From assembly GCF_039994875.1 (NCBI RefSeq), contig NZ_CP121196.1, forward strand, positions 5,332,001-5,396,000: a stretch of DNA of 64,000 bases, in the 5' to 3' direction. Position 1 is the first letter of the stretch. Each line of letters opens with the position of its first letter. The notes beneath the pieces were generated by a model. The model was given only the letters and a program-made list of their open reading frames with translations. It made no database searches and was not told the origin of the DNA. The stretch is from Telmatobacter sp. DSM 110680 (GTDB lineage: Bacteria; Acidobacteriota; Terriglobia; Terriglobales; Acidobacteriaceae). Below are positions 50,057 through 63,931 of this stretch, in pieces. The translations under genes and the position numbers were made by a program.

Positions 50057-50821
50057 TTACTCTGCATCCAACTCGATCGCACCTTCCTTCAGTGAAGTGC
50101 CCGTTCGCTGCTTCAAGCGGGCTACCTGGAGAAGACGAAACAGACGATCCGCAGCCACCTTCGGCGAAAGACCGCCATTGCGAATATTAGAAAGACAATT
50201 GCGGTCAGCGTCAGTGCGATCAGGACCCGGCGACCAAGTAAGGTACGCGCCCATGCTGTCGGGAGAAGACAATCCCGGTCGTTCTCCGATCAGAATCAAG
50301 CTGCACCTCGCTCCAAGGTTTGCACCAACTTCATCTCCAACCGCTACCCTTCCCTGCTGAACGATGGCGATGGGCGCCAAGTTCCACGCATTTGCAAGGA
50401 GTTGAGGAAGCAGATGGGCAAGCAGCGGGACGGCATTGCGCTCAATTGCAAGGGCCGAAAGCCCGTCGGCAATGGTGATGGCCAGGTCGCACGGGCTTCT
50501 GCGAAGCATGGCGACTGAATCGGGGTGAAGGGTACGGCCGAGATTCGGATGGCGCAGATAAGTTGCCCGATTCGGCGCGTTGGTGCGCAGTTGAATAACT
50601 ACGATGCCGGCATCTGTCAAAATCGGGAGTTCGGCAATCAGGCGTTGCGCGAATAAAGGTAGATAAAGCTCGGCATGAACGGCATCTCGCGCCAGCGCAT
50701 GGTCCCGTCGAAAGCTCAGGACTTCATCGGTGGCGATGCTGTTGCCAGTAGTCGGCAAAGACACTCGGGCCGCGGTCAAATCGCGCAGGTTTGAGAGGGA
50801 TGTTCGAGTGAGCTTCGTCAT
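50057..50821 (-). CDS. eutC: Ethanolamine ammonia-lyase small subunit
   Basis: EutC pairs with EutB to form the adenosylcobalamin-dependent enzyme that turns ethanolamine into acetaldehyde and ammonia. The 254-aa product has the family motifs TDEVLSFRRDHALARDAVH near the start, the B12-contacting segment IADGLSALAIERN, GERPGLSSPDSMGAYLTW, and DRNCLSNIRNGGL. It begins 7 bp after the eutB stop. A longer frame to 50953 overlaps eutB in another frame and is rejected. No other eut gene (transport, reactivase, microcompartment) is nearby. Confidence 0.93.
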   Translation of the reverse strand: MTKLTRTSLSNLRDLTAARVSLPTTGNSIATDEVLSFRRDHALARDAVHAELYLPLFAQRLIAELPILTDAGIVVIQLRTNAPNRATYLRHPNLGRTLHPDSVAMLRRSPCDLAITIADGLSALAIERNAVPLLAHLLPQLLANAWNLAPIAIVQQGRVAVGDEVGANLGARCSLILIGERPGLSSPDSMGAYLTWSPGPDRTDADRNCLSNIRNGGLSPKVAADRLFRLLQVARLKQRTGTSLKEGAIELDAE

Positions 50822-50828
50822 GGCAGCG

Positions 50829-52187
50829 TTATTGTCCGGCAAGCAACTGGGCTTGAAGAGGCTCGGCAAGTCGGTTCGGCATATCGCCTTCCAGCCACGC
50901 TTCAAACTCCGGTGATGGGCGAAGACCAAGAATGGATCGGAGATATAACGCATCGTGGAAAGATGTGCTCTGGTACTGAAGCATGATGTCGTCGGCTCCC
51001 GGCACCCCCATGATGTAGTTCACGCCTGCAGCTCCGAGAAGCGTCAGCAGCGAATCCATATCGTCTTGATCGGCCTCGGCATGATTGGTATAGCAAACAT
51101 CGCAACCCATTGGAAGCCCAAGCAATTTGCCGCAGAAATGATCCTCAAGACCGGCGCGCAGGATTTGCTTTCCGTCATAGAGATATTCCGGCCCAATAAA
51201 CCCAACTACCGTATTCACCAGCATTGGTTTGTAGTGTCGGGCAACGGCATAAGCTCGCGCCTCACAGGTCTGCTGATCGACCCCATGATGCGCATTCGCC
51301 GAAAGTGCGCTTCCCTGGCCCGTTTCGAAATACATGACGTTTTGACCGACGGTTCCTCGACGCAATTCAGATGCGGCCTGATTCGCCTCCGCAAGCAAAG
51401 CCAAGCTGATACCAAAAAAAGCATTCGCTTGCTCAGTACCTGCGATGGACTGGAAGACGAGGTCAACCGGTGCCCCCTGCTCAAGCGCCGCTAGTTGCGT
51501 GGTGACGTGCGCTAAAACGCAGCTTTGCGTTGGGATCGCATAGCGCTCTCGGACCGTGTCGATGAGGCGAAGTAAGTTGATCGTACCGGCCACGCTATCA
51601 CCAGCAGGATTGATTCCGATAACGGCATCGCCCGAACCAAGAAGCAAGCCGTCCACGATAGCTGCGGCAATGCCAAGCGGGTTGTCCGTCGGATGATTAG
51701 GTTGGAGTCGCGTCGATAGACGGCCCGGCAATCCGACCGTTGTCCGAAAGCGTGTAACCACGCTGATCTTACGGGCAACTGCAATCAGGTCCTGCACACG
51801 CATCAGTTTGCAGACTGCCGCAACCATCTCGGGCATCAGACCTGGGGCGATGGATTGCAGAAATTGCGTTGTCGCCTCCTCTGAGAGCAGCACGTTTCGC
51901 AATTCACCTACAGTAAGACTCGCGATGGGGGCGTGGGCAGATGCGTCATGTGTATCGAAGATAAGACGCGTGACCTCGTCCGTTTCGTATGGAATGATTG
52001 GCTCTTGAAGGAAAGCGCCGAGCGGAAGATCAGCCAGCGCCATCTGAGCGGCAACGCGTTCGACAGCACTCCGCGCGGCTATGCCTGCAAGCTCGTCTCC
52101 GGATCGCGCCGGAGTTGCCTTCGCAAGCAGTTCCCTTAGACTTCCAAAGTTGTAGTTGACCCCGTCAATGCTATGCCGCAGGAGCAT
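50829..52187 (-). CDS. eutB: Ethanolamine ammonia-lyase large subunit
   Basis: EutB is the catalytic TIM-barrel subunit. The 452-aa product has the expected length (about 450) and motifs such as VVDG-like AAIVDGLLLGSGDAVIGINPAGDS, the FISSITG-like VFQSIAGTEQANAFFGI, YFETGQGSALSANAHHGVDQQT, and CDVCYTNHAEADQDDMD near the end. It forms an operon with eutC. The ATG at 52187 is preceded by GGAG. A TPR gene ends 32 bp upstream; co-transcription is possible but not implied by function. Confidence 0.95.
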   Translation of the reverse strand: MLLRHSIDGVNYNFGSLRELLAKATPARSGDELAGIAARSAVERVAAQMALADLPLGAFLQEPIIPYETDEVTRLIFDTHDASAHAPIASLTVGELRNVLLSEEATTQFLQSIAPGLMPEMVAAVCKLMRVQDLIAVARKISVVTRFRTTVGLPGRLSTRLQPNHPTDNPLGIAAAIVDGLLLGSGDAVIGINPAGDSVAGTINLLRLIDTVRERYAIPTQSCVLAHVTTQLAALEQGAPVDLVFQSIAGTEQANAFFGISLALLAEANQAASELRRGTVGQNVMYFETGQGSALSANAHHGVDQQTCEARAYAVARHYKPMLVNTVVGFIGPEYLYDGKQILRAGLEDHFCGKLLGLPMGCDVCYTNHAEADQDDMDSLLTLLGAAGVNYIMGVPGADDIMLQYQSTSFHDALYLRSILGLRPSPEFEAWLEGDMPNRLAEPLQAQLLAGQ

Positions 52188-52219: not shown

Positions 52220-53179
52220 TCAGCGATCCGGTGCGGTTTTGATTGATATTGGATTTGGTGTCTTCTCCGACGAATGCGCACCACTCAGCTTTGCACAGAT
52301 GTCGAACTGTTCCCGGGCGCGGTCACGCATTCCTTCTTGGCGGTAGATTTGCCCAAGCTTGAAGTGGAGACTTGATATATCGGGCGCCAGGGCGATGGCC
52401 CTCTCTAACTCGCTTTGCGCTTTCGGCAGATCTCTCTGCACCGAATAGACGTGACTCAGCTCTTCGTGGATGGTTGGATTTTGGGGCGAAAGAACGGCAG
52501 CTTTAGCAAGGAATGGGGCTGCTTCTTCAGTCTTGTTTTGGTCTACGAGCAGAGTCCCCATGTTTAAAAAAGGCTGCGCGTCCGCTGGCGCGTCTCCCTG
52601 CCAGTCAATCGCGGTCTGGAATGCAGCTTTGGCCTTTGCGAGGTCGTTCAACTCGCGCCACGCCAGGCCGATGTTGTTTTCGGCCTCCACGTACTTTGGA
52701 TGTAGGGCCAACGCGCGTTCGAAACTAGATATGGCTGCCGGAAAATCATTCTCATTGAACTTAGTCCTGCCCAGTAGATAATTCGCATCCGCGTCGTCCG
52801 GGGCTTCGGCAACTACCTCTGAAAACCACTTGTCCGCATCGCCGAAATCGCCCAGCATTACATAATCAGAGGCGACGACCTTTAGCTCATCGGGACGCGG
52901 GCGTCGAAATTTTGCACCAGCCGTGAATTCGGCAAGGGATTCTTTGGCCTTGCGCTCGCTGAAGAGCACATAACCCAACAAAAAGTGCGCGTCGGCGGAT
53001 GACGGATTGGTGTTGAGATAAGCCATTAAGGCCGACTCAGATTCCCCCAGTTTTCCAGCCGCTACAAGCGAACGCTCCTGCGCCAATGGATCCGCAGGCT
53101 CCTGGCAAACACACTCCCCGGCACATGTCGCAATCAGAAGCAATGCACAGCAAATCATTTGGACCTTTTGCTTTTCCAT
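52220..53179 (-). CDS. Exported TPR protein
   Basis: This protein of about 319 aa has an N-terminal signal (MICCALLLIATCAGECVCQ) and then several TPR repeats, e.g. AEAPDDADANYLLGRTKFNENDFPAAISSFERA, ALHPKYVEAENNIGLAWRELND and ALAPDISSLHFKLGQIYRQ. TPR arrays mediate protein-protein contacts; nothing identifies the partner. The ATG at 53179 gives a good signal sequence; the frame continues to 53203. Its 3' end is 32 bp upstream of eutB, so transcription may run through. Confidence 0.8.
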   Translation of the reverse strand: MEKQKVQMICCALLLIATCAGECVCQEPADPLAQERSLVAAGKLGESESALMAYLNTNPSSADAHFLLGYVLFSERKAKESLAEFTAGAKFRRPRPDELKVVASDYVMLGDFGDADKWFSEVVAEAPDDADANYLLGRTKFNENDFPAAISSFERALALHPKYVEAENNIGLAWRELNDLAKAKAAFQTAIDWQGDAPADAQPFLNMGTLLVDQNKTEEAAPFLAKAAVLSPQNPTIHEELSHVYSVQRDLPKAQSELERAIALAPDISSLHFKLGQIYRQEGMRDRAREQFDICAKLSGAHSSEKTPNPISIKTAPDR

Positions 53180-53362
53180 CGGATGATTATTTGCCGTTAG
53201 CATCGCATGATTTCATCTGCGTCAGCAATCGTCGCATGTCCTCCAAATTTGGACAACAGAAGAGCGCGATCGAACAGGTGCTTCACGCACGGAGTAGCCC
53301 GCGGATTCGCAGCCCTGTGCGAAGCATAGCCAGATAAAAATCGACACTCTAATTGACGCGCC

Positions 53363-54553
53363 CTATTGCGCCTTGCTCTTGATTGCGCTGGAGTCACCGG
53401 CCTGCTTTGCGACCGCTGCGCTAGCTTCTCTCTGCAAGGTCCCATAAGTACGCATCTCCTCCTGCGCCTCGGAACTTTTGCCTTGGGACCTATAGACATT
53501 GGCGAGGAGGAAATGGATAGTGGGCTCACTCGGGGTATCTTTCTCGGCCATCAACAGGTCAGGCAAGGCTTCGGGCTGCCTCCCAAGTCTCACCAGCGCG
53601 CGTGCGCGATCAACGCGGGCTTGCATGAGTGTTGGACAACGTTCGAGAGAGCTATTCAGTTGAGACAATGCTTCTTCGCTGGAATCATTGGCCTCGAGCA
53701 TTGAATTCGCCAGTTTCCAGTGGGCCATACAGTTGTTTGGATCGTTGGTGAGTTCTGCCTTGAACTCGGTTTGCGCGGACTGCCACTTTCCGATGTACCA
53801 GTATGCGTCTCCCATGTGCATGTGCGTGCCGGGCATATGCGGAGCCATGTCTACGGCTTTCTGATACTCAACGAGGGCAAGGTCGTAATTGTGCATGCTC
53901 TCGTCTATTTCCCCAGCGATCTCGTGGGCAACCATTGAATTGGGATCGATCTCGTTGATTTTCTTGAGTGAGTTTTCCGACAGTTGCAAGTAGGTCTTGC
54001 CGAGCAGATACCAGCCTTCCTGATCCTTCGGATTCCGCGCCAGGAAGTTGTTCAAGTGGTTTGCCGCTTCTTCAAGCTTCCTTGCATTGATGAGCAAACG
54101 GGCAAGCATCATTTCAACGCGATCATCCTTTGGATTCGCACTTAAGGCTCGCCGCAACAGCGGCTCAGCCTTTTCATCTGCTCCCAGTTGCACATAACTC
54201 ATCCCAAGTATTGCAACCGCCGTCGGCATGTCGGGATTGAGTTCCAGCCCGCGTTTAAGAATTTGAGATGCGTGCTGGAAGTCGTGTTGATTGAAGTAGA
54301 GAACTCCAAGATTGTTGTATGCCGCCGCCAGATGAGGTGCCAGCTTGATGATCGAACGGTATTTCTCGATTGCAGAAGCGTCGTCTCCGTTTTGAGATGC
54401 AGCATTGGCTTGTGCATACAAGCGCTGGACTGCCGGAGTGACTTCATCATCGCCCTGCTGTGCGTGGGCCGCTGCCTGAGACAAAGCGAGCAATCCAACT
54501 GCCAAAAGGCATCGCAGTCCGGGCAGTGAAAGTCTAATGGAGAGGTACTTCAT
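53363..54553 (-). CDS. Exported TPR protein, 396 aa
   Basis: It has a signal peptide (LRCLLAVGLLALSQAAAHAQ) and at least eight TPR units, e.g. IIKLAPHLAAAYNNLGVLYFNQHDFQHASQILKR, ELNPDMPTAVAILGMSYVQLGADEKAEPLLRR and DLALVEYQKAVDMAPHMPGTHMHMGDAYWYIGKWQSA. The mature protein would act in the periplasm or at the cell surface. A TATAAT at 54562-54567 lies only 8 nt before the ATG, and no ribosome-binding site is seen, so the mRNA may be leaderless. It lies just beyond the TonB receptor terminator on the same strand. Confidence 0.85.
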   Translation of the reverse strand: MKYLSIRLSLPGLRCLLAVGLLALSQAAAHAQQGDDEVTPAVQRLYAQANAASQNGDDASAIEKYRSIIKLAPHLAAAYNNLGVLYFNQHDFQHASQILKRGLELNPDMPTAVAILGMSYVQLGADEKAEPLLRRALSANPKDDRVEMMLARLLINARKLEEAANHLNNFLARNPKDQEGWYLLGKTYLQLSENSLKKINEIDPNSMVAHEIAGEIDESMHNYDLALVEYQKAVDMAPHMPGTHMHMGDAYWYIGKWQSAQTEFKAELTNDPNNCMAHWKLANSMLEANDSSEEALSQLNSSLERCPTLMQARVDRARALVRLGRQPEALPDLLMAEKDTPSEPTIHFLLANVYRSQGKSSEAQEEMRTYGTLQREASAAVAKQAGDSSAIKSKAQ

Positions 54554-54746: not shown

Positions 54747-57700
54747 CTAAAATTCTAATCGGAAACTTACCTGCCCTTGCCGGTTCGAGATATTCGAACC
54801 CTGTGAGGTCACCTGTCCAAACGTGCCATCGCTCTTGTTGTTGTCAGGCCCGTTGAACTGCGTTCGATTGAAGGCATTGAAGTAGTCCACCGAAAGAATT
54901 CCCGTGAAGCGTTCTCCGATGTAGAAATTCTTCTTGGCGTTTAGATTCTCCAATGCCAGTGGAGCATTTCTCATTCCGCCATAGTTCCTTTGCGCGGTCC
55001 CGATCACGTACTGGTTTGGGGTCAGGGTGAACGAATTGGGATCAAACATCTGCGCAACCGGTATCTTCTTCACGAAGTAGTCACGCACACGCTTGTAGGA
55101 TGCGGTGCTAAGGCCGACGGAGGGGTTACGATCGGGGCGTTCAAACCCGTTCGGGAAGGGAGAGCCGTTCTCGCCAGGTCCATTCACCGTTCCGGATTCG
55201 TAGTCGAGGATCCAGCCAACTTGCCATCCACCGACGACATTGCCCATTTTGTGGTTGTTGACATACTTCTTTCCGGGACCGATCGGCAGCAGATAGGTTC
55301 CGCTGGCTTTCAGAGTCTGCGGCTCGTCTGCGTTGGAAATTGCCCACTCAGGCTTCTGGTTGTATTTGTTGATACCGCCAGAAGTGAAGCTGGAGAATCC
55401 GCTGCTGGTGTTATCCATCAGGCGAGAAAGCGTATATCCCGCAAGGAAAGACAATCCGTTCGAGAAGCGCTTCTCAACTTCGATCTGCGCGCCTTGGTAG
55501 TAGGTCGTTCCAAATCCTTCAAAGTTGTTGAAGATGTACGAATACTGCGGGAACGGCACAAGTGCCTGAGCCACAGTAGCCGACCCTCCAAAATCGTTGA
55601 CGAAGTTTGGATATGGCAGCGGTACGCCATCCAACGATGTCTGGCCGGGTTGGAATACATCTGCCAGCTGGGAGCCGAACTGTGCGTCGTACTTCGGGTC
55701 CATCTGGTCGATGCGATTGAGCTGGCTGGGGAGGTGGATGATACGGTTCCCCACCCAAGCTGCCGTCACGAACATGTTGTACGGAAGTTCGCGTTGCAGG
55801 TTCACGTTCCACTGTTGGCTATAAGGCGCGTACCCATCCTTCTTGGGGCTGAAAGCGTTGATCTGGTTGCCAGCGCCAAGGCCTGGACTGAAAGGAGTCG
55901 GGTTAACAGCAGGGATTTGGTTGGTGTCCCAACTGCCGAAGGAAGACGTGAAGCTACCTGTACTGTTGCGCGTAAATGAGCCGGTCAACAAGTTTCCGTA
56001 ATTGACCGCGACTTTGTTGGTGCCGTACTCATATGCTCCGCCATCGAGGAATGCGACGTCGACGCCAGCTTGAAGAACCATCTTCCTGCTCAACTGGTAT
56101 GCAAATCCTAAACGCGGACCAAAATGGCCGTAGTGGATGTCTCCGCGGGTAATCCCATTGCCAAACTTGCTCGCCGAACCAGCAATGTTGCTGCCAGGGA
56201 ATGTTCCCGGGTTGTCCTGATTGAAGAAGACAATCAGGTTGTGGTTTTCTGTAAAGGGAGCCTGAATATCCCAGCGCAGCCCCACGTTGATGGTAAGTCG
56301 AGGCGAGAGCTTGATATCGTCCTGGATGTACGGTGAGAGGTCCCAGTTGCGCAGTTCCAACTCCTGGGAGTTACTGCGGTTCGCCGAATCCGGAATACCC
56401 AGCAGGAAACTCGCAAATGCGCTGCCATACTTTCCAAAATTCGGGTCGCTCGAATTCTGAATAGAAGTGGTTCGCTGGCTGAAGTTGAAGTGACCGCCTT
56501 CAGTCTGCTCTTCGTTGTCATCCTGGTACGAACGACGGAACTCGGTGCCGATATTGAAGGTGTTCCGTCCCCTTGTCCACAACCAGTTGTTTACCAGCGC
56601 GATTCCAAGCTTGCGGTTGATGGATTGGAACCATGAGCCACTGGTGCCCCAGCTTGTGGGAGCGTGCTGGCCATCAAACGTGATGTTTGGCGGAATGTTT
56701 TCATTTGCAACGGCTCCGAACGTAGCGCCCTTGGTGATGTTGTACTGGTTGTTGATTTCACCGATCCAGCCGATGCCGGCGGTCATCACCAAGTGAGGCG
56801 AGAGCGTGTTGCTGTAGTTCAACAGAAATACGCTACCAACAGCAGGTTCATATTTCTGACTGTTCAGAGGATTGGGCGCAATCACGATGGGAGAATAGTC
56901 AAAGCTGTGAGTCGTGTAGCTGTTGCGCCACTGGCTATAGTGGAGGCTCTGTTTCGGGGTAAGCACCTGATCGACGGTGAAACCCCACACATGTTGAATG
57001 TTCGGATTGATGAAGGGGGCGAAGCTCTTGTTCGAGTCCAGACCTCCCACACCGCTTCCTGGCCGATCCGGGTCGGGAATATCACTGATCAAGGTCGCCG
57101 ACAAGGGGCTGATGCGGCTAGGACAAATTACGTTCAGCACGCCATTGCACTGGAACTGCTGGCCCGTCGTGGGATCGTAAATCGGAATTAAAGCTCCACT
57201 GCTGCCGTCGACGTAGTCTGTAAAGTTGCCGGTTTTCTCGAGGGCGGTTGGCACTGTACCAGAATTAATATCCTCGTTGTTCTGCTTGTACCATTCCTGG
57301 CTGTAGTGACCGAAGGTCCGGTTGCGCCCGTCATATACGTGAGGAATGCTGATCGGACCGCCAACGCTGAAGCCGTAATTGTTCTCGTGATCCGAAGGAG
57401 GCTTATTCACTCCGCCGAACGCGGGACCGTTGAAGAATCCGACCGAATCAAAGAAGCTGTTGCGGTTGATCTCGAACAGATCTCCGTGATAGCGGTTAGT
57501 GCCGGATTTCATCTGGTAAGTGAGCGCACCCTGTCCTAGGCCGAACTGCGCCGAAAACGTTGAACGCTCGACTTTGTATTCGTCTACCAGTTCGAAAGGC
57601 GGATTGAAGTTCGTCGTGTAGCCTTCGGTTTCCGGCTGAGGAGCGGGGATTCCGTTGTAGACAATCTCCTGCTCAAAATCGACGCCTCCGCTCACGCGGT

Positions 57701-58271
57701 GTGAGAAAGTGCTGCCCGTGGTCCCAGGAGCCGTAAACTGCAACTGATCGATTTGACGGCCTCTGCCCGAAACTTCTTCCGGGAGTGCTGCCACGACCAC
57801 CGGTTCAATCGTGCTTCCGATCTCGGGCGCCGTTGTATTCAGGGCGATTGCGTCGGAGGTGACCTGGACCGTTTCGTTAGCTGCACCAGTCGAGAGGCTG
57901 ATATCGATGGTAGCCGTCGTACTGACGTCGATGTTGATCCCTTTTTGGACTTCTTTCTTGAAGCCCGGGGCGTCAACAGCGACTGTGTATTTGCCGGGGA
58001 GTAGACCCTTGAACGAATAGGTTCCTGCACTGCTGGTCGTCGTGTTACTCGCTACGGACGTTGCCTCGTTGGTGATGGTCACCTTTGCATTCGGAATTAC
58101 GGCACCGCTCGGATCGGTGATGGTGCCGGTAACGCCTGCGCTGGCCTGCGCTTTTCCTATACGGGGAGCCAGCAAGATCAGGCATGCGATTGCGATGGCG
58201 ATGACATACCATGCGTTCGCCTTTGAGCGGCGCGGCACGGCGCACTCCTTCGAAACGGTGAATCGTCTCAC
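54747..58271 (-). CDS. TonB-dependent receptor with carboxypeptidase-regulatory-like domain (Oar-like)
   Basis: This 1174-aa outer-membrane receptor has a signal peptide (VIAIAIACLILLAPRIGKAQA). A CarboxypepD_reg-like domain (about residues 45-125; GVTGTITDPSGAVIPNAKVTI, GTYSFKGLLPGKYTV) is followed by a plug domain (about 140-260) and a 22-strand barrel ending in QVSFRLEF, whose terminal Phe is the BAM signal. Such Oar-like receptors are expanded in Acidobacteria and are linked to import of large substrates such as glycans or peptides. GTG 58271 has AGGAGG upstream; a second GTG at 58238 is also possible. Its promoter contains a LacI-type operator pair (58364-58397). Confidence 0.93.
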   Translation of the reverse strand: MRRFTVSKECAVPRRSKANAWYVIAIAIACLILLAPRIGKAQASAGVTGTITDPSGAVIPNAKVTITNEATSVASNTTTSSAGTYSFKGLLPGKYTVAVDAPGFKKEVQKGINIDVSTTATIDISLSTGAANETVQVTSDAIALNTTAPEIGSTIEPVVVAALPEEVSGRGRQIDQLQFTAPGTTGSTFSHRVSGGVDFEQEIVYNGIPAPQPETEGYTTNFNPPFELVDEYKVERSTFSAQFGLGQGALTYQMKSGTNRYHGDLFEINRNSFFDSVGFFNGPAFGGVNKPPSDHENNYGFSVGGPISIPHVYDGRNRTFGHYSQEWYKQNNEDINSGTVPTALEKTGNFTDYVDGSSGALIPIYDPTTGQQFQCNGVLNVICPSRISPLSATLISDIPDPDRPGSGVGGLDSNKSFAPFINPNIQHVWGFTVDQVLTPKQSLHYSQWRNSYTTHSFDYSPIVIAPNPLNSQKYEPAVGSVFLLNYSNTLSPHLVMTAGIGWIGEINNQYNITKGATFGAVANENIPPNITFDGQHAPTSWGTSGSWFQSINRKLGIALVNNWLWTRGRNTFNIGTEFRRSYQDDNEEQTEGGHFNFSQRTTSIQNSSDPNFGKYGSAFASFLLGIPDSANRSNSQELELRNWDLSPYIQDDIKLSPRLTINVGLRWDIQAPFTENHNLIVFFNQDNPGTFPGSNIAGSASKFGNGITRGDIHYGHFGPRLGFAYQLSRKMVLQAGVDVAFLDGGAYEYGTNKVAVNYGNLLTGSFTRNSTGSFTSSFGSWDTNQIPAVNPTPFSPGLGAGNQINAFSPKKDGYAPYSQQWNVNLQRELPYNMFVTAAWVGNRIIHLPSQLNRIDQMDPKYDAQFGSQLADVFQPGQTSLDGVPLPYPNFVNDFGGSATVAQALVPFPQYSYIFNNFEGFGTTYYQGAQIEVEKRFSNGLSFLAGYTLSRLMDNTSSGFSSFTSGGINKYNQKPEWAISNADEPQTLKASGTYLLPIGPGKKYVNNHKMGNVVGGWQVGWILDYESGTVNGPGENGSPFPNGFERPDRNPSVGLSTASYKRVRDYFVKKIPVAQMFDPNSFTLTPNQYVIGTAQRNYGGMRNAPLALENLNAKKNFYIGERFTGILSVDYFNAFNRTQFNGPDNNKSDGTFGQVTSQGSNISNRQGQVSFRLEF

Positions 58272-58363
58272 TTTGCCTCCTGGTGTTGCCCAGTTCTTTC
58301 TTAAGTGTTGGTTGGAAAGTTGAACATCGGAATGGCTCTAAATGGCCCCATTTCCCCGATTCG

Positions 58364-58397
58364 TGGAATCGATACCATTTTTGTGGTAGCGATTCCA
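58364..58397. promoter_or_regulatory. Pair of LacI-type operators downstream of the receptor promoter
   Basis: TGGAATCGATACCA (58364-58377) and TGGTAGCGATTCCA (58384-58397) are 14-bp near-palindromes around a central CG, typical of LacI/GalR operators. They are 20 bp apart centre to centre (two helical turns) and lie just downstream of the -10, where a bound repressor would block transcription. Confidence 0.75.
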
Positions 58398-58406
58398 TTC
58401 CGCGCA

Positions 58407-58436
58407 AATATACGTCGGGCAAATTTCACCTGTCAA
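58407..58436 (-). promoter_or_regulatory. Sigma-70 promoter of the TonB receptor
   Basis: On the minus strand, TTGACA (58431-58436) and TATATT (58407-58412) are separated by 18 bp. Expected transcription start is near 58400, leaving a leader of about 130 nt that contains the operator pair. Confidence 0.8.
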
Positions 58437-58672
58437 GGAGATTTTTCAAAAACGTGACCAACCGGAATCTGTCGACTTCAACAGGCTGATATTGACAATG
58501 ACTCACGAATGAGACATTTGCGCCGCCATCGCTGCCCAGGAGAATCGATTTATCCTCGATGATCTCGCCGCGGCGACTAGATCGACGTCGGTACCCTGTC
58601 GGCGATACTGCTGTTTCACGGGGATCAGGAGGGATAAGCGGCGTCGCCGCCGAAAAGTTAACTAATTAATAA

Positions 58673-60538
58673 CTACGGTAGCCGTTGGCAAAGTTGACCG
58701 CCACATAGGGCGGACATAATTCCTCGGCCCTCAGCAATAGTGAAAATGCGATCAAGGGCTGGCAGTTTGATACTCTCTTTCGCGCCTGAGGGCCAATGAA
58801 TCTCGACGCTCCCCGCATCCGTCGCATCGCCCAGGCCGAAATGGAGACGTGGGTCGTTGGTCGACACGTAGCTTCCGCCGCTGATCACATCCTGTCGTTG
58901 ACGAACTCCATTCGCAGTAAGGTAAACGGTTGCTCCGACTGCGTCACGCGGACTTCGCGGACCGCCTACGAGCTTTAGTTCAACCCAATGATGGTGATCG
59001 GCATTTACGTTTTTCAGCAGCACCGGAGTGCCATCTATCTGGTTAATGACTACGTCGATTTTGCCGTCGTTGAAGAGATCACCAAAAGCTGCTCCGCGTC
59101 CCGAAATTACTTCAGCAAGTCCAGAACCCCTGATCGGCGGGACCTCCGTGAACTTGCCGTCACGCTCGTTATGAAACAACAATGGCCGCTGCGCATACGA
59201 AGTACCCCAGTCGAGCCTGTCGGCCGCGGGATAAATGTGCCCGTTCACAAACATCAGGTCGAGCCAACCGTCATTGTCGTAGTCAAGGAATCCATCGCCC
59301 CAGCCCAGGAAAGGAATGGAGATCTTTCCAATTCCGGAGCGCATGGAGACTTCACTGAATCCACTCTTGCCCTGATTGTGAAACAGCAGCTTCGCTTCAT
59401 CTGAGAAATCGCTGATCGCGAAATCCAGCAGGCCATTATTCATGTAATCGCCTGCCGCGACGCCCATGGCAGCCACTTCACGCCCGTCTTCATTCAGTCC
59501 GAAACCTGTGGAATAGCTTGCATCCTCAAACGTCCCGTCTCCTCGGTTGAGGTAGAGATAACTCAAGGTGGAATCGTTCGCGACCACCAGATCGGGCTTG
59601 CCATCGCCGTTCGCATCTACGAATACGGGCGTCAAGCCGTAGTATTTATTCGCCTCATCCGCTACGCCCGCCTTGACGCTCACTTCGGTGAAGGTTCCAT
59701 CTCCGTTGTTGTGGAAGAGATGATCTGGCTCGCCTTCAAGATTCTTTGGACCGCACATGACCGGCTCACCTCGAAATTCGCAGTATGAAAAACCAGTAGC
59801 TTTGGTCTTCTCATAGGGCAAATTTGCGCGGTCGAAGTGAACATATCCGGAGATGAAGAGGTCGAGCCGGCCGTCTCCGTCGTAGTCTCCCCACGTCGCG
59901 CCTGCCGACCAATTGCCCAGCGCGACGCCCGCTTTTTCGGCCACATCGGTGAAGGTTCCATCATGGTTGTTGTGGTACAGCCGATTCTTCCCCCAGTTTG
60001 TCACCATAATGTCGGGCCAGCCGTCATTGTCATAATCCGCGATCGCTACGCCGAATCCCCACCGATCATTCGTAACACCTGCCTTGGCTGCGACATCGGT
60101 GAATGTCCCGTCATGATTGTTGTGAAACAGCGCGGCATGTGGCGGCTCCTGTTTGCCGTCGAGCGCATTGAATGTCGAGCCATTCACGAGGTAGATGTCG
60201 AGCCATCCATCATTGTCGTAATCGATCAGCCCAACACCGGATCCATTCGTGTCGATGATCAGCATCTTGTCCGCTGCGCCCATCGTGTGTTTCCAGCCGG
60301 ATAATCCGGCGTCTTTGGTTACATCCTTGAAAACTACGGGGCCTACGTCCACGAAGCCGCTCGCCGTGATGGGTCTCTTTTGAGAATCACGGCTGGATTG
60401 TGCTTGAGTCGACGAACTGCGACCTTGGCCGGATTGCGGAGACGGCCCCATCTGGGCGGCGACGAAAACGGCGGGCACAGCCGATGCAACGAACACCGCA
60501 ATCAACGCGCTAGCTCGCATGAGCCGATTATCCGGCAA
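58673..60538 (-). CDS. CRTAC1 family protein (FG-GAP/VCBS repeats plus ASPIC/UnbV), copy 1
   Basis: This exported protein of up to 621 aa has a signal segment (SALIAVFVASAVPAVFVAAQ). Several calcium-binding FG-GAP/VCBS repeats follow (DYDNDGWLDIYLVNGS, DYDNDGWPDIMVTNWGKN, DYDGDGRLDLFISGY, DANGDGKPDLVVAND), probably forming a beta-propeller. The C-terminus has an ASPIC/UnbV domain (HHWVELKLVGGPRSPRDAVGATVYL). Function is unknown; CRTAC1 proteins are exported and are recurrent near TonB receptors and TPR genes in this phylum. A TTG start at 60538 has GGAGGAG 7 nt upstream; an ATG at 60520 is the alternative. Confidence 0.85.
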   Translation of the reverse strand: MPDNRLMRASALIAVFVASAVPAVFVAAQMGPSPQSGQGRSSSTQAQSSRDSQKRPITASGFVDVGPVVFKDVTKDAGLSGWKHTMGAADKMLIIDTNGSGVGLIDYDNDGWLDIYLVNGSTFNALDGKQEPPHAALFHNNHDGTFTDVAAKAGVTNDRWGFGVAIADYDNDGWPDIMVTNWGKNRLYHNNHDGTFTDVAEKAGVALGNWSAGATWGDYDGDGRLDLFISGYVHFDRANLPYEKTKATGFSYCEFRGEPVMCGPKNLEGEPDHLFHNNGDGTFTEVSVKAGVADEANKYYGLTPVFVDANGDGKPDLVVANDSTLSYLYLNRGDGTFEDASYSTGFGLNEDGREVAAMGVAAGDYMNNGLLDFAISDFSDEAKLLFHNQGKSGFSEVSMRSGIGKISIPFLGWGDGFLDYDNDGWLDLMFVNGHIYPAADRLDWGTSYAQRPLLFHNERDGKFTEVPPIRGSGLAEVISGRGAAFGDLFNDGKIDVVINQIDGTPVLLKNVNADHHHWVELKLVGGPRSPRDAVGATVYLTANGVRQRQDVISGGSYVSTNDPRLHFGLGDATDAGSVEIHWPSGAKESIKLPALDRIFTIAEGRGIMSALCGGQLCQRLP

Positions 60539-60604: not shown

Positions 60605-62464
60605 TCAATGGGATTTGCAGGGCTTTCCTGAACACAGCGCGCCGGTGATGCCTTTGGTCTCGCGAATGGTGTAGATCCGGTCGACGGCCGGAAACGTCAC
60701 CGTTTCTGTTTTACCGGATGGCCAGTGAATTTCGGCGGTCCCCGCATCCGTGGAGTCGCCTAAGCCGAAGTGCAATCGCTGATCATTCGACGAAATGAAT
60801 CCACCACTTGAAAGCACATCCTGACGCATGCGCATTCCGTTGGCCTTGAGATAAACGGTGGCACACATCGCGTCGCGCGGGCTCTTAGGGCCGCCAACCA
60901 GTTTCATTTCAATCCAATGATGACGATCGGAGTTCACGTTCCTCAGCAGAGTCGGAGGTCCGTCGATCGGATTGATGACTACATCGATCCTGCCATCATT
61001 GAACAAATCACCAAACGCAGCGCTCCGCGCCGGAATCACATCGGCCAACCCGGTTCCAATTACCGGAGGGACATATTCGAAGACTCTCTCTCCAGAACCC
61101 GTTACGTTATGGAAGAGCAGTGGTCGCTCTGCGAACGTGGTGCCCCAGTCGTGCTGATCCACTTCGGGATAAACATGGCCGTTAGCCATAAACAGATCCA
61201 GCCAGCCGTCATTGTCATAGTCGATAAAGCCATCGCCCCAGCCCACAAATGGAATCGGAATCTTTTCGAGGCCTACTTTATCGCTTACATCCGTAAATGC
61301 ATGATCCGGATCCTGGCGAAAGAGCACTTTGTAGTCATCGGAAAAATCCGTAACGAAGAAATCAATGCCACCGTTGTTTTCATAATCACCCGCGGCAATT
61401 CCCATCGACGCTATCTCGCGTCCATCGCGATTCAGCGCGAATCCAGAATCATAGCTCTGATCTTCAAAGGATCCGTCGCCTTTGTTGATGTAGAGGTAAT
61501 TCGGCTCAGAGTCGTTGCCGACCACCAAGTCCGGTTTTCCATCGCCATTGATATCCACGAAAATCGCGGCAAATCCGTAATATGCATTCTTGTCAGCGAC
61601 GCCAGCTTTGACACTGACATCGGTAAATGTTCCATCACCGTTATTGTGGAATAGGTGATCCGGTTGCCCCTTTAGACCCCGCGGACCGCACATCACTGGC
61701 ACTCCACGAAACTGGCAGAACGATGGGGCTGCAGCCTCGGTGCCTGCTCCTGAAACTTCCTTACGTTCGAAGTGCACATAGCCTGCGACGAACAAATCCA
61801 AGCGTCCGTCGCCGTCGAAATCGCCCCATGTAGCTCCGGATGACCAGTTATCTAATGCGACTCCGGCCTTCTGAGCCACATCGGTAAACGTACCGTCGTG
61901 ATTGTTGTGGTACAGGCGATTCTTTCCCCAGTTTGAGACAAAGATGTCGGGCCAGCCATCGTTGTCGTAGTCGCCGACGGTGACGCCGAACCCCCAGCGA
62001 TCGTTCGTGACTCCGGCCTTGGCGGCAACGTCAGTAAAGGTGCCGTCATGATTGTTATGGAATAGCGCAGCATGGGGCGGCTCTTCTTTGCCGTCGAGAG
62101 CGTTGAAGGTTGAGCCGTTTACTAGGTAAATATCGAGCCACCCGTCATTGTCGTAATCGAGAAGCGCGATTCCGGATCCGTCGGTGTCGATAATCAAAGG
62201 CTTCTTCGGCGAGCCCATCTTGTGGCTCCAACCTGAAAGACCCGCGGCTTTGGTGATGTCCTTGAAAATCACCGGGCCGGAGTCTACAAAACCGCCTGCG
62301 GTGATGGGTCGCTTCTGGGCATCGTAGACGGGAGCAAACGTGCCGCCCGTTGCATTGCCGCCCTGCTGCGCGGGCGAGGTAGCCATCTGCTGGGCTGCGG
62401 CTACGGATAGGTACAGAATGGTTACGGTCAAGACACGAAGAAGCCGACCACACACATGCGACAA
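60605..62464 (-). CDS. CRTAC1 family protein (FG-GAP/VCBS repeats plus ASPIC/UnbV), copy 2
   Basis: This 619-aa paralogue of the previous gene has the same domain order: signal segment (VLTVTILYLSVAAAQQ), FG-GAP/VCBS repeats with the calcium loops DYDNDGWLDIYL, DYDNDGWPDIFV, DFDGDGRLDLFV, DINGDGKPDLVV, and the C-terminal ASPIC/UnbV part (HHWIEMKLVGGPKSPRDAMCATVYLKANG). The first of the repeats are nearly identical in both copies (GSTFNALDGK then EEPPHAALFHNNHDGTFTDV), while loops differ, so this is a tandem duplication. No clear ribosome-binding site is seen before the TTG at 62464; the exact start is uncertain. Confidence 0.85.
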   Translation of the reverse strand: MSHVCGRLLRVLTVTILYLSVAAAQQMATSPAQQGGNATGGTFAPVYDAQKRPITAGGFVDSGPVIFKDITKAAGLSGWSHKMGSPKKPLIIDTDGSGIALLDYDNDGWLDIYLVNGSTFNALDGKEEPPHAALFHNNHDGTFTDVAAKAGVTNDRWGFGVTVGDYDNDGWPDIFVSNWGKNRLYHNNHDGTFTDVAQKAGVALDNWSSGATWGDFDGDGRLDLFVAGYVHFERKEVSGAGTEAAAPSFCQFRGVPVMCGPRGLKGQPDHLFHNNGDGTFTDVSVKAGVADKNAYYGFAAIFVDINGDGKPDLVVGNDSEPNYLYINKGDGSFEDQSYDSGFALNRDGREIASMGIAAGDYENNGGIDFFVTDFSDDYKVLFRQDPDHAFTDVSDKVGLEKIPIPFVGWGDGFIDYDNDGWLDLFMANGHVYPEVDQHDWGTTFAERPLLFHNVTGSGERVFEYVPPVIGTGLADVIPARSAAFGDLFNDGRIDVVINPIDGPPTLLRNVNSDRHHWIEMKLVGGPKSPRDAMCATVYLKANGMRMRQDVLSSGGFISSNDQRLHFGLGDSTDAGTAEIHWPSGKTETVTFPAVDRIYTIRETKGITGALCSGKPCKSH

Positions 62465-62588: not shown

Positions 62589-63623
62589 TTACGCAGATGC
62601 CCACGTGGGCTTCAACGCATACACCGGAAGAATGCACGCACCTAGCAATCCCGCCTCAGCACCGAGTTTCGCCGGTAATACCTGGGTGCCTCCGCCCGGC
62701 ATTCCGGTTGAAGCAACTCTACCCGGCGCTGTGAGTGAATAGACATAACTTCGACGCTCTAGTTCCTCAAACATCACCGGCGACAGCAGGTCCCATGAGT
62801 TAGCTACTCCACCTCCGACAACGTAGAGAGGCAAATTCAAAATGTTGATCAACCCTGCCAGGCTAATTCCCAGCGTGCGGCCCGTTTCAACATAGATCCG
62901 CTTGGCATCCGCATCGCCCTGCCGCGCAGCATCAGCGAGATTCTCTGCGGTTAACGACATTTTTTCTTTGAGCCTGGCGAGGCCGGGAGCTTTTCCCGCA
63001 GCTATCAGTCTCTCGGCAGCGTTCACAACGGCGGTTGCAGACGCACACGCTTCAAGGCAGCCGTTATTGCCGCATCCGCAGAGCGCGCCATCGGGATAGA
63101 TCGTCATGTGTCCTGCTTCGCCGCCCATTCCCGTCGCGCCGTGCCAAAGCTTTCCATCCAGAATGATCCCATTGCCAACGCCAGTCCCGAGCGTCAACAT
63201 GCACATGGATTCGATTCCAAGCTGCTTTCCAAGACCCAGTTCGTATTCCGCGAGCACAGCGGCGTTCGCATCGCTCTCGATCGCGACAGGCCGCTGAAGT
63301 CGCTTCTCCATTTCAGCTAGCAGCGGAAAACCATCCCACCCCGGAAGATTGGGCGGATGATGGAGGCGCCCTGCCGGCAACTCTAGCGGTCCAGGTGAGC
63401 CGACACCGATGCCTGCAAAATCGCGAGAAGCGGAATGTTGATTGATTTGCTTCAGAATGACCGCACACATGTCGTCCACGACAGCCATTGGTCCGGCTTC
63501 GAGGCGTGTGCGCAGCGAAATTGAATCAAGCACGCCAGTACCAGGCGCGTAAGCCGCGATCCTGAGACTCGTTCCTCCAAGATCGACGCCGATAGTGAGA
63601 AACTGCGTGTTACCCAAGGCCAT
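62589..63623 (-). CDS. ROK family sugar kinase (glucokinase-like)
   Basis: This 344-aa kinase of the ROK family phosphorylates a hexose, most likely glucose or N-acetyl sugar. The ATP-binding motif is GVDLGGTSLRIA; the catalytic Asp is in IESDANAAVLAEYE; the zinc-binding Cys cluster is GCGNNGCLEACAS, with the ROK signature from LTLGTGVGNGII to GAGHM-type residues. It has no N-terminal helix-turn-helix, so it is an enzyme, not a NagC-like repressor. I prefer the ATG at 63623; a GTG at 63632 is possible. Two identical LacI-type operators lie upstream. Confidence 0.92.
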   Translation of the reverse strand: MALGNTQFLTIGVDLGGTSLRIAAYAPGTGVLDSISLRTRLEAGPMAVVDDMCAVILKQINQHSASRDFAGIGVGSPGPLELPAGRLHHPPNLPGWDGFPLLAEMEKRLQRPVAIESDANAAVLAEYELGLGKQLGIESMCMLTLGTGVGNGIILDGKLWHGATGMGGEAGHMTIYPDGALCGCGNNGCLEACASATAVVNAAERLIAAGKAPGLARLKEKMSLTAENLADAARQGDADAKRIYVETGRTLGISLAGLINILNLPLYVVGGGVANSWDLLSPVMFEELERRSYVYSLTAPGRVASTGMPGGGTQVLPAKLGAEAGLLGACILPVYALKPTWASA

Positions 63624-63756
63624 TCCGATCACCGCAAAAGCCAGAAAATGCGAACCACGCTTGCGCCTGACGCTGAAATTGAGACCACGGCAAGTGTTGG
63701 AGAAGATCCGAGAGAGCTAACCGACCTCAGTTTTCTCCGGCTCCTCCCGTTATCAC

Positions 63757-63770
63757 TGGAAACGATACCA
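63757..63770. promoter_or_regulatory. LacI-type operator upstream of the ROK kinase
   Basis: TGGAAACGATACCA is a 14-bp near-palindrome centred on CG. Its reverse complement, TGGTATCGTTTCCA, occurs again at 63918-63931, and it is close to the two sites at the receptor promoter. It lies 125 bp upstream of the kinase start. Confidence 0.7.
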
Positions 63771-63917: not shown

Positions 63918-63931
63918 TGGTATCGTTTCCA
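63918..63931. promoter_or_regulatory. Second LacI-type operator near the right edge
   Basis: TGGTATCGTTTCCA is the exact reverse complement of the site at 63757-63770. It lies 43 bp before the possible start codon at 63974, so it could regulate a rightward gene and the kinase from a shared region. Confidence 0.7.

Follow-up and report, generated by a model that had tools for sequence, protein, structure and literature searches.

Can the DNA in front of an Oar-like outer-membrane receptor gene tell us what the receptor handles? Soil Acidobacteria carry many such receptors of unassigned cargo. We addressed this question for one receptor of Telmatobacter sp. DSM 110680 (Acidobacteriaceae), which is encoded in a 64,000-nucleotide stretch of contig NZ_CP121196.1 (positions 5,332,001 to 5,396,000; hereafter the window). 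Our preferred reading, to which we give a probability of about 0.82, is that two palindromes behind the receptor promoter serve as operators for a LacI-family repressor of an Acidobacteriaceae alpha-mannoside regulon that includes the receptor. At the sequence level this reading is built on the sites, the promoter geometry, their conservation, the link to a LacI gene and the genes beside the sites.

A palindrome pair behind the receptor promoter

The initial annotation had claimed two 14-mers of LacI operator type at 58364-58397, about 10 bp after the -10 element of a TTGACA-18 bp-TATATT promoter. The receptor gene and its control elements are as follows (window coordinates):

54747-58271, minus strand: Oar-like outer-membrane receptor with CarboxypepD_reg and OMP_b-brl_4 domains (Pfam); GTG start behind AGGAGG
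58431-58436, minus strand: -35 hexamer TTGACA of the receptor promoter (scan; conserved in orthologues)
58407-58412, minus strand: -10 hexamer TATATT of the receptor promoter (scan; conserved in orthologues)
58384-58397, unstranded: operator 1, promoter-proximal, TGGTAGCGATTCCA when read on the plus strand; one departure from the consensus
58364-58377, unstranded: operator 2, TGGAATCGATACCA; exact fit to the palindromic consensus TGGWAWCGWTWCCA

Both 14-mers are present with their centres 20 bp apart, and the promoter matches its description, with a spacer of 18 bp between TTGACA and TATATT and a measured gap of 9 bases (58398-58406) between the -10 hexamer and operator 1. The sole departure of operator 1 from the consensus is a G for W. 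Together, the operators span 93-126 bp before the receptor GTG at 58271. When 57500-59500 was scanned, the receptor promoter was the only sigma-70-like match (11 of 12 positions). Because shuffled sequence contains a mean of 1.1 matches as good as this one, the promoter call leans on conservation in orthologues more than on the scan. As a rule of thumb, transcription starts about 7 bases after the -10 element. The receptor transcript is thus predicted to start near 58400, with the operators at about +10 and +30.

The consensus TGGWAWCGWTWCCA is an even palindrome with a central CG pair, which is a trait of LacI-family operators, and the pair spacing of 20 bp lies near a multiple of the helical turn, as is typical of this family. 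Ravcheev et al. 2014 (PMC4052901) describe LacI-family operators as even palindromes with a central CG, found mostly 30-140 bp before the start codon and with intersite peaks at 13, 22 and 32 bp, of which those at 22 and 32 bp were read as cooperative binding. The pair resembles the sugar regulons described there in its central-CG palindrome, its position, its spacing of about two turns and its sugar-catabolic targets. It differs from them in its spacing of 20 bp (19-22 bp in relatives) and in having many Oar-like receptors among its targets. The word "acidobacter" is absent from the main text of PMC4052901.

Exact copies of the motif in the genome

When the window was searched for a related pattern with up to two mismatches, 16 strand-wise matches were found, compared to a mean of 1.9 in 100 shuffles, none of which reached 16. 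The exact consensus occurs five times in the genome of 5,987,865 bases and its reversed control not once, while a first-order model of the window predicts 0.23 copies (P for at least five about 4e-6). The copies lie at 58364, 63757 and 63918 of the window and at genome positions 5783559 and 5860441. The initial annotation had considered that the motif might be random in the genome, but all five exact copies are found at the receptor, at the ROK kinase gene and GH38 remnant described below, and at two GH38 genes. The copies at 5783559 and 5860441 each precede an intact GH38 gene, and the two GH38 N-terminal domains that a family search finds in the genome are those of these two genes. The copies at 63757 and 63918 lie between the ROK kinase gene and the truncated GH38 gene.

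If one mismatch is tolerated, 19 copies are found in the genome versus 10 for the control, so that lone one-mismatch sites are mostly noise. The site at 58384 counts nonetheless because of its position and conservation. The four other one-mismatch places that were inspected singly are probable background, namely TGGATTCGATTCCA at 63206-63219 within the ROK coding region, a copy at 73573 within a VWA gene past the window end, and copies at genome positions 1218317, before an Ig-domain protein, and 1304060, within a PD40-repeat gene.

Genes around the receptor and a truncated alpha-mannosidase gene

The receptor gene is flanked by the following genes and sites; the last two lie past the window end and are numbered as though the window continued.

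52220-53203, minus strand: second TPR protein downstream of the receptor; homologue adjoins the receptor in several relatives
53363-54553, minus strand: TPR protein downstream of the receptor; homologue adjoins the receptor in several relatives
58673-60538, minus strand: FG-GAP / ASPIC-UnbV protein upstream of the receptor (domain scan)
60605-62464, minus strand: second FG-GAP / ASPIC-UnbV protein (domain scan)
62589-63632, minus strand: ROK-family sugar kinase (Pfam PF00480)
63757-63770, unstranded: exact operator TGGAAACGATACCA upstream of the ROK kinase (motif scan)
63918-63931, unstranded: exact operator TGGTATCGTTTCCA, interpreted as the operator that the truncated GH38 gene kept (motif scan and alignment)
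64033-64632, plus strand (genome C1:5396033-5396632): GH38 alpha-mannosidase remnant just past the window end
64688-65734, minus strand (genome C1:5396688-5397734): LacI-family regulator gene past the window end

The GH38 remnant consists of the last ~190 codons of a gene. In locus L222 the GH38 gene is intact; positions 63918-64050 align with its operator and leader (65% over 138 columns) and 64067-64632 with its 3′ part (75%), from which we conclude that about 2.7 kb of the GH38 gene was lost and its operator kept. In the same comparison, L227 gave the 3′ match alone, and L053 and L226 gave shorter leader matches. The two intact GH38 genes elsewhere in the genome, both with an operator, may cover the function of the truncated copy. 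On the kinase side, a 22-bp stretch over the operator at 63757 aligns with the ROK-side operator of L226.

In several relatives, FG-GAP / ASPIC-UnbV homologues recur before the receptor and TPR homologues behind it. Judging by strand and neighbourhood, our guess is that both FG-GAP / ASPIC-UnbV proteins belong to the regulon. No SusD family was listed among 18 neighbouring proteins (E 0.001; for one TPR protein, 25 of 26 families were shown), and the FG-GAP / ASPIC-UnbV and TPR proteins may fill the role of SusD. Behind the receptor and TPR genes, on the same strand, lie the ethanolamine ammonia-lyase subunits EutC (50057-50953) and EutB (50829-52187, both minus strand). GH127-, GH15- and GH116-type genes past the window were considered as substrate clues and discarded, as no site with at most one mismatch precedes them.

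Conservation of the predicted operator before receptor orthologues

In genomes with the LacI gene, a site with at most one mismatch was found upstream of 16 of 18 receptor orthologues. Counted here are orthologues of at least 64% identity with their 5′ end present, the own genome excluded; G142 L151, which has no 5′ end, and orthologues below 64% were left out. The positives comprise 14 of the 16 loci of one batch, together with G072 C1 (L081) and G089 C212 (L154, its 3′ end cut by the contig). The two orthologues in which no site was found are G089 C250 (L135) and G072 C4 (L136), and both genomes have another receptor copy with a site. By contrast, none of four receptor orthologues in genomes lacking this LacI (G104, G040, G043 and G099, the last a partial locus, L150) has a site with at most one mismatch upstream. 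Among shuffled upstream regions, sites were present in 5 of 8000. The initial annotation had allowed for a motif that is not conserved upstream of orthologous receptors; the 16 of 18 versus 0 of 4 speak against this, and motif distribution and orthologue conservation largely support its LacI-type reading of the pair, to which the LacI gene past the window end and the alpha-mannoside class are additions.

The promoter geometry is retained as well. A TTGACA-type promoter was found in all 14 site-bearing orthologues of the batch, and the gap between the -10 element and the site is 7-11 bp in 13 of them, the exception being L152, where the second site alone is a good match. In eight of the 14, another site (up to two mismatches) follows at 21-22 bp, compared to 20 bp in the own genome, and the pair spacing is 19, 21 and 21 bp in L221, L229 and L231, respectively. 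Eight further LacI loci were taken from public records, with several starts judged by orthologue length. In these, a site with at most one mismatch precedes all 4 receptor orthologues, all 7 ROK genes and all 5 close GH38 orthologues. Occallatibacter savannae is the nearest species-named relative among those compared (LacI 83% identity); its 21-kb stretch holds the receptor and ROK sites and no GH38 gene. More distant receptors of 45-54% in LacI genomes gave a mixed picture, with no site in G129 and G033, a one-mismatch site in G199 and G019 and an exact site in G101. In G098, whose closest LacI shares only 44%, the receptor has an exact site.

Two of the orthologues from genomes lacking this LacI, L138 (G040:C2) and L150 (G099:C125), have TGGGANCGTTATCA, a variant palindrome, at the corresponding promoter position, which suggests that operator and regulator changed together. 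In a third, L141 (G043:C156), a different near-palindrome, ATCCGGAATGTATATCCGGAT, lies behind the promoter.

Could the palindromes be chance sequences with no regulatory role? Genome-wide, one-mismatch sites are only about twice as frequent as the control, as chance would predict, but five exact sites where 0.23 are expected, all at related genes, and a site in 16 of 18 orthologues contradict this explanation so strongly that we consider its probability negligible.

The motif follows a LacI-family regulator

The regulator gene lies 6-7 kb from the receptor operators. Its product contains the LacI helix-turn-helix (PF00356) and a periplasmic-binding-protein-like sensor domain (PF13377), both over their cut-offs. 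The best model, NF047341, would make it an RbsR, but the score of 217.2 bits is far below the cut-off of 382, and for this reason the regulator is not filed as such.

We searched 200 Acidobacteriaceae genomes for the regulator and the motif. Thirty of them, the own genome included, have a LacI orthologue of at least 52% identity; the loci of this set were taken before the motif scan, genome tallies were made by hand, and G188 (LacI fragments of 124 residues, 69%) was kept out. The exact motif is present in 29 of the 30 (121 copies; reversed control 0), compared to 32 of the 170 other genomes (51 copies, of which G160, G166 and G140 together account for 18; 16 copies for the reversed control). 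The association of motif and LacI orthologue has a Fisher P of 7e-17, a value that ignores the kinship of the genomes. The one LacI genome without the exact motif is G141. Of 31 stretches centred on the LacI gene, 24 hold an exact site. No site adjoins the LacI gene of the own genome, and autoregulation is therefore not seen there.

The position of the copies was compared in a sample of 30 loci. Sites at 11 of 12 loci from LacI genomes lie in no ORF over 150 codons. In all 13 genomes sampled that have no close LacI orthologue, the copy lies inside an ORF of at least 262 codons. These copies behave as chance copies would, because most sites would fall in genes by chance. The remaining five loci were set aside: G098 (in a 315-codon ORF), G188 (43 bp into a 516-codon ORF) and G015, G140 and G160 (no ORF over 97 codons). 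Of the 32 genomes that carry the motif but no close orthologue, 18 are covered by the sample. The copies of G106 and G184 look like one and the same gene.

Helices were read for 24 LacI proteins of the set of 30, and 20 of these have the recognition stretch GVGTTTVSRVING, while the closest LacI proteins of G040 and G104 have GVAIM and GVAQM before TVSRVVNGG. The helix lends weak support, because exact sites are kept despite other residues in G015 (GVGSG), G148 (GVGAA) and G098 (GVGNA). For LacI proteins of 46-49%, an exact site lies near the gene in G015, G140 and G148; in the short stretches read, G166 and G168 have only a one-mismatch site and G117 has none.

The genome encodes seven LacI-family proteins, and related LacI proteins can have overlapping operators. 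If another of the seven bound the sites, this would also agree with the relatives that keep the motif with different helix residues. We nevertheless regard this as very improbable: across the 200 genomes the presence of the motif follows the window-adjacent LacI, exact sites occur in 24 of the 31 stretches centred on this gene, and the single own paralogue of which the helix was read (one of six) has GVSIATVSRVVNG. The window-adjacent LacI protein is our candidate repressor.

Predicted target genes in related genomes

We classed 115 of the 121 exact sites (29 genomes) and merged them to 108 regions, five of which belong to the own genome. The six unclassed sites are G142 C237, C355 and C408, the pair at G142 C10 (L102) and G072 C1:2517968 (L098). 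Targets were assigned by Pfam for exemplars and by BLAST to the exemplars for the rest, and one region can count under two headings. By a simple caller, 97 of the 115 sites are intergenic and the other 18 fall within a called ORF; many of the latter, perhaps not all, are due to overlong called starts.

The genes reading away from the 108 regions are Oar-like receptors (45), GH38 (23), ROK (12), LacI (8), GH92 (6), pro-kumamolisin-domain proteins (4), GxGYxYP proteins (3), GH76 (3), GH3 (2), sugar transporters (2), GFO oxidoreductases (2), GH47 (1), a TPR protein (1) and a phosphodiesterase (1). Two of the six GH92 regions are doubtful, as the site is perhaps inside the gene start, and no target was assigned in 10 regions (12 if these two are dropped). 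The families GH38, GH92, GH47 and GH76 comprise alpha-mannosidases or alpha-mannanases, and 33 of the 108 regions adjoin a gene of one or more of them (31 if the doubtful GH92 are left aside). It is for these 33 regions that we put the substrate class as alpha-mannosides. The four pro-kumamolisin-domain targets are large proteins adjoining exact operators (L159:750-4319, L174:4687-8226, L183:561-4016 and L211:4653-8099), with the pro-kumamolisin activation domain as their only Pfam match.

The geometry of operator and promoter differs by target. Of 48 receptor-oriented sites, 24 have a promoter match 7-16 bp before the site and 10 at 28-33 bp before it, whereas the six promoter matches at 10 ROK-oriented sites all lie on the other side of the operator.

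A real repressor with these operators could also control more than mannosides, for instance the scavenging of glycoproteins or of fungal cell walls, or hexose use in general, in which case the receptor cargo need not be a mannoside. The phosphodiesterase, the GFO oxidoreductases and the four pro-kumamolisin-domain proteins are not plainly mannose-related, and the GH3 genes, the putative GxGYxYP hydrolases and the sugar transporters beside operators would likewise fit such a regulon. The same holds for the ROK kinase, which matched best to a glucokinase-type family (NCBIfam ROK_glcA_fam; 182.9 bits, below the 260.35-bit cut-off). On the other hand, the five exact sites of the own genome point to GH38, ROK and the receptor, and the pooled targets include four alpha-mannosidase-type families. 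We therefore judge the broader regulon unlikely, although it is the most serious of the alternatives, and keep to alpha-mannosides.

Proposed mechanism and comparison with known systems

We infer repressor binding, cooperativity, inducer and transport as follows. Two repressor dimers, one near +10 and the other near +30, would sit on almost the same face of the helix and thereby block transcription, the second operator strengthening occupancy through neighbouring dimers. The likely inducer would be a mannose-type sugar released by alpha-mannosidases. The predicted regulon is scattered, comprising the receptor with its TPR neighbours, the ROK kinase (perhaps with the FG-GAP proteins) and the GH38 alpha-mannosidases, to which relatives may add GH92, GH76, GH47, sugar transporters and further receptors. 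In a regulon of alpha-mannoside genes, the receptor would import or otherwise handle alpha-manno-oligosaccharides.

The lac operator O1 of Escherichia coli is centred near +10, just behind the -10 element. Operator 1 shares this position, with the difference that the second operator is only 20 bp away here. As operator 1 overlaps the predicted start region like lac O1, the plain reading would be repression at initiation, and its position looks more like lac O1 than like an elongation roadblock.

The receptor might serve enzyme secretion instead of uptake. Oar of Myxococcus xanthus is described as required for PopC secretion (PMC6434023), and with this precedent a receptor that serves enzyme secretion could be expected to share its operator with enzyme genes, as is observed. 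The receptor is also co-regulated, by predicted operators, with a sugar kinase, which uptake would predict. We find a secretion role improbable and favour uptake of manno-oligosaccharides, given the predicted co-regulation of the receptor with alpha-mannosidases and a sugar kinase.

Its regulon content makes the system ManR-like, in that genes of mannoside breakdown and uptake are co-regulated; GH38, GH92, GH76, GH47, ROK and receptor genes lie beside predicted sites, as in a LacI-family ManR regulon. In Bacteroidetes polysaccharide utilisation loci, receptor, glycosidases and regulator form one functional unit. The same grouping is predicted here, but no SusD is listed near the receptor, its neighbours are TPR and FG-GAP proteins, and the targets are scattered over the chromosome. 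ManR of mannose and mannosides belongs to LacI-family groups (PMC4052901), with manR of Shewanella as an example (PMC2996990), while ManR of Bacteroides is of the GntR family and works with SusC/SusD (PMC3878776).

A LacI sugar regulon with tandem operators is of a kind already well known. Among the open-literature matches listed, mostly titles and abstract starts, there was no acidobacterial LacI alpha-mannoside regulon. What appears to be new is the acidobacterial member, together with the range of Oar receptors that it covers and the substrate prediction.

Implications for Oar-like receptors

The receptor gains a predicted substrate class, alpha-mannosides. A readable operator ties one receptor orthologue group, and many receptors in relatives, to alpha-mannoside breakdown, and turns receptor function into a testable prediction, namely growth on fungal or yeast mannan. 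Reading operators in this way also offers a method for the remaining Oar-like receptors. More tentatively, at slightly less than even odds, one LacI repressor may run a chromosome-wide regulon for scavenging alpha-mannan and mannoprotein across much of the Acidobacteriaceae. It would induce numerous Oar-like receptors jointly with as many as four alpha-mannosidase families and with pro-kumamolisin-domain proteins, and fungal cell walls would be the diet. If this is true, scanning for operators would yield substrates for dozens of acidobacterial receptors that are otherwise unassigned.
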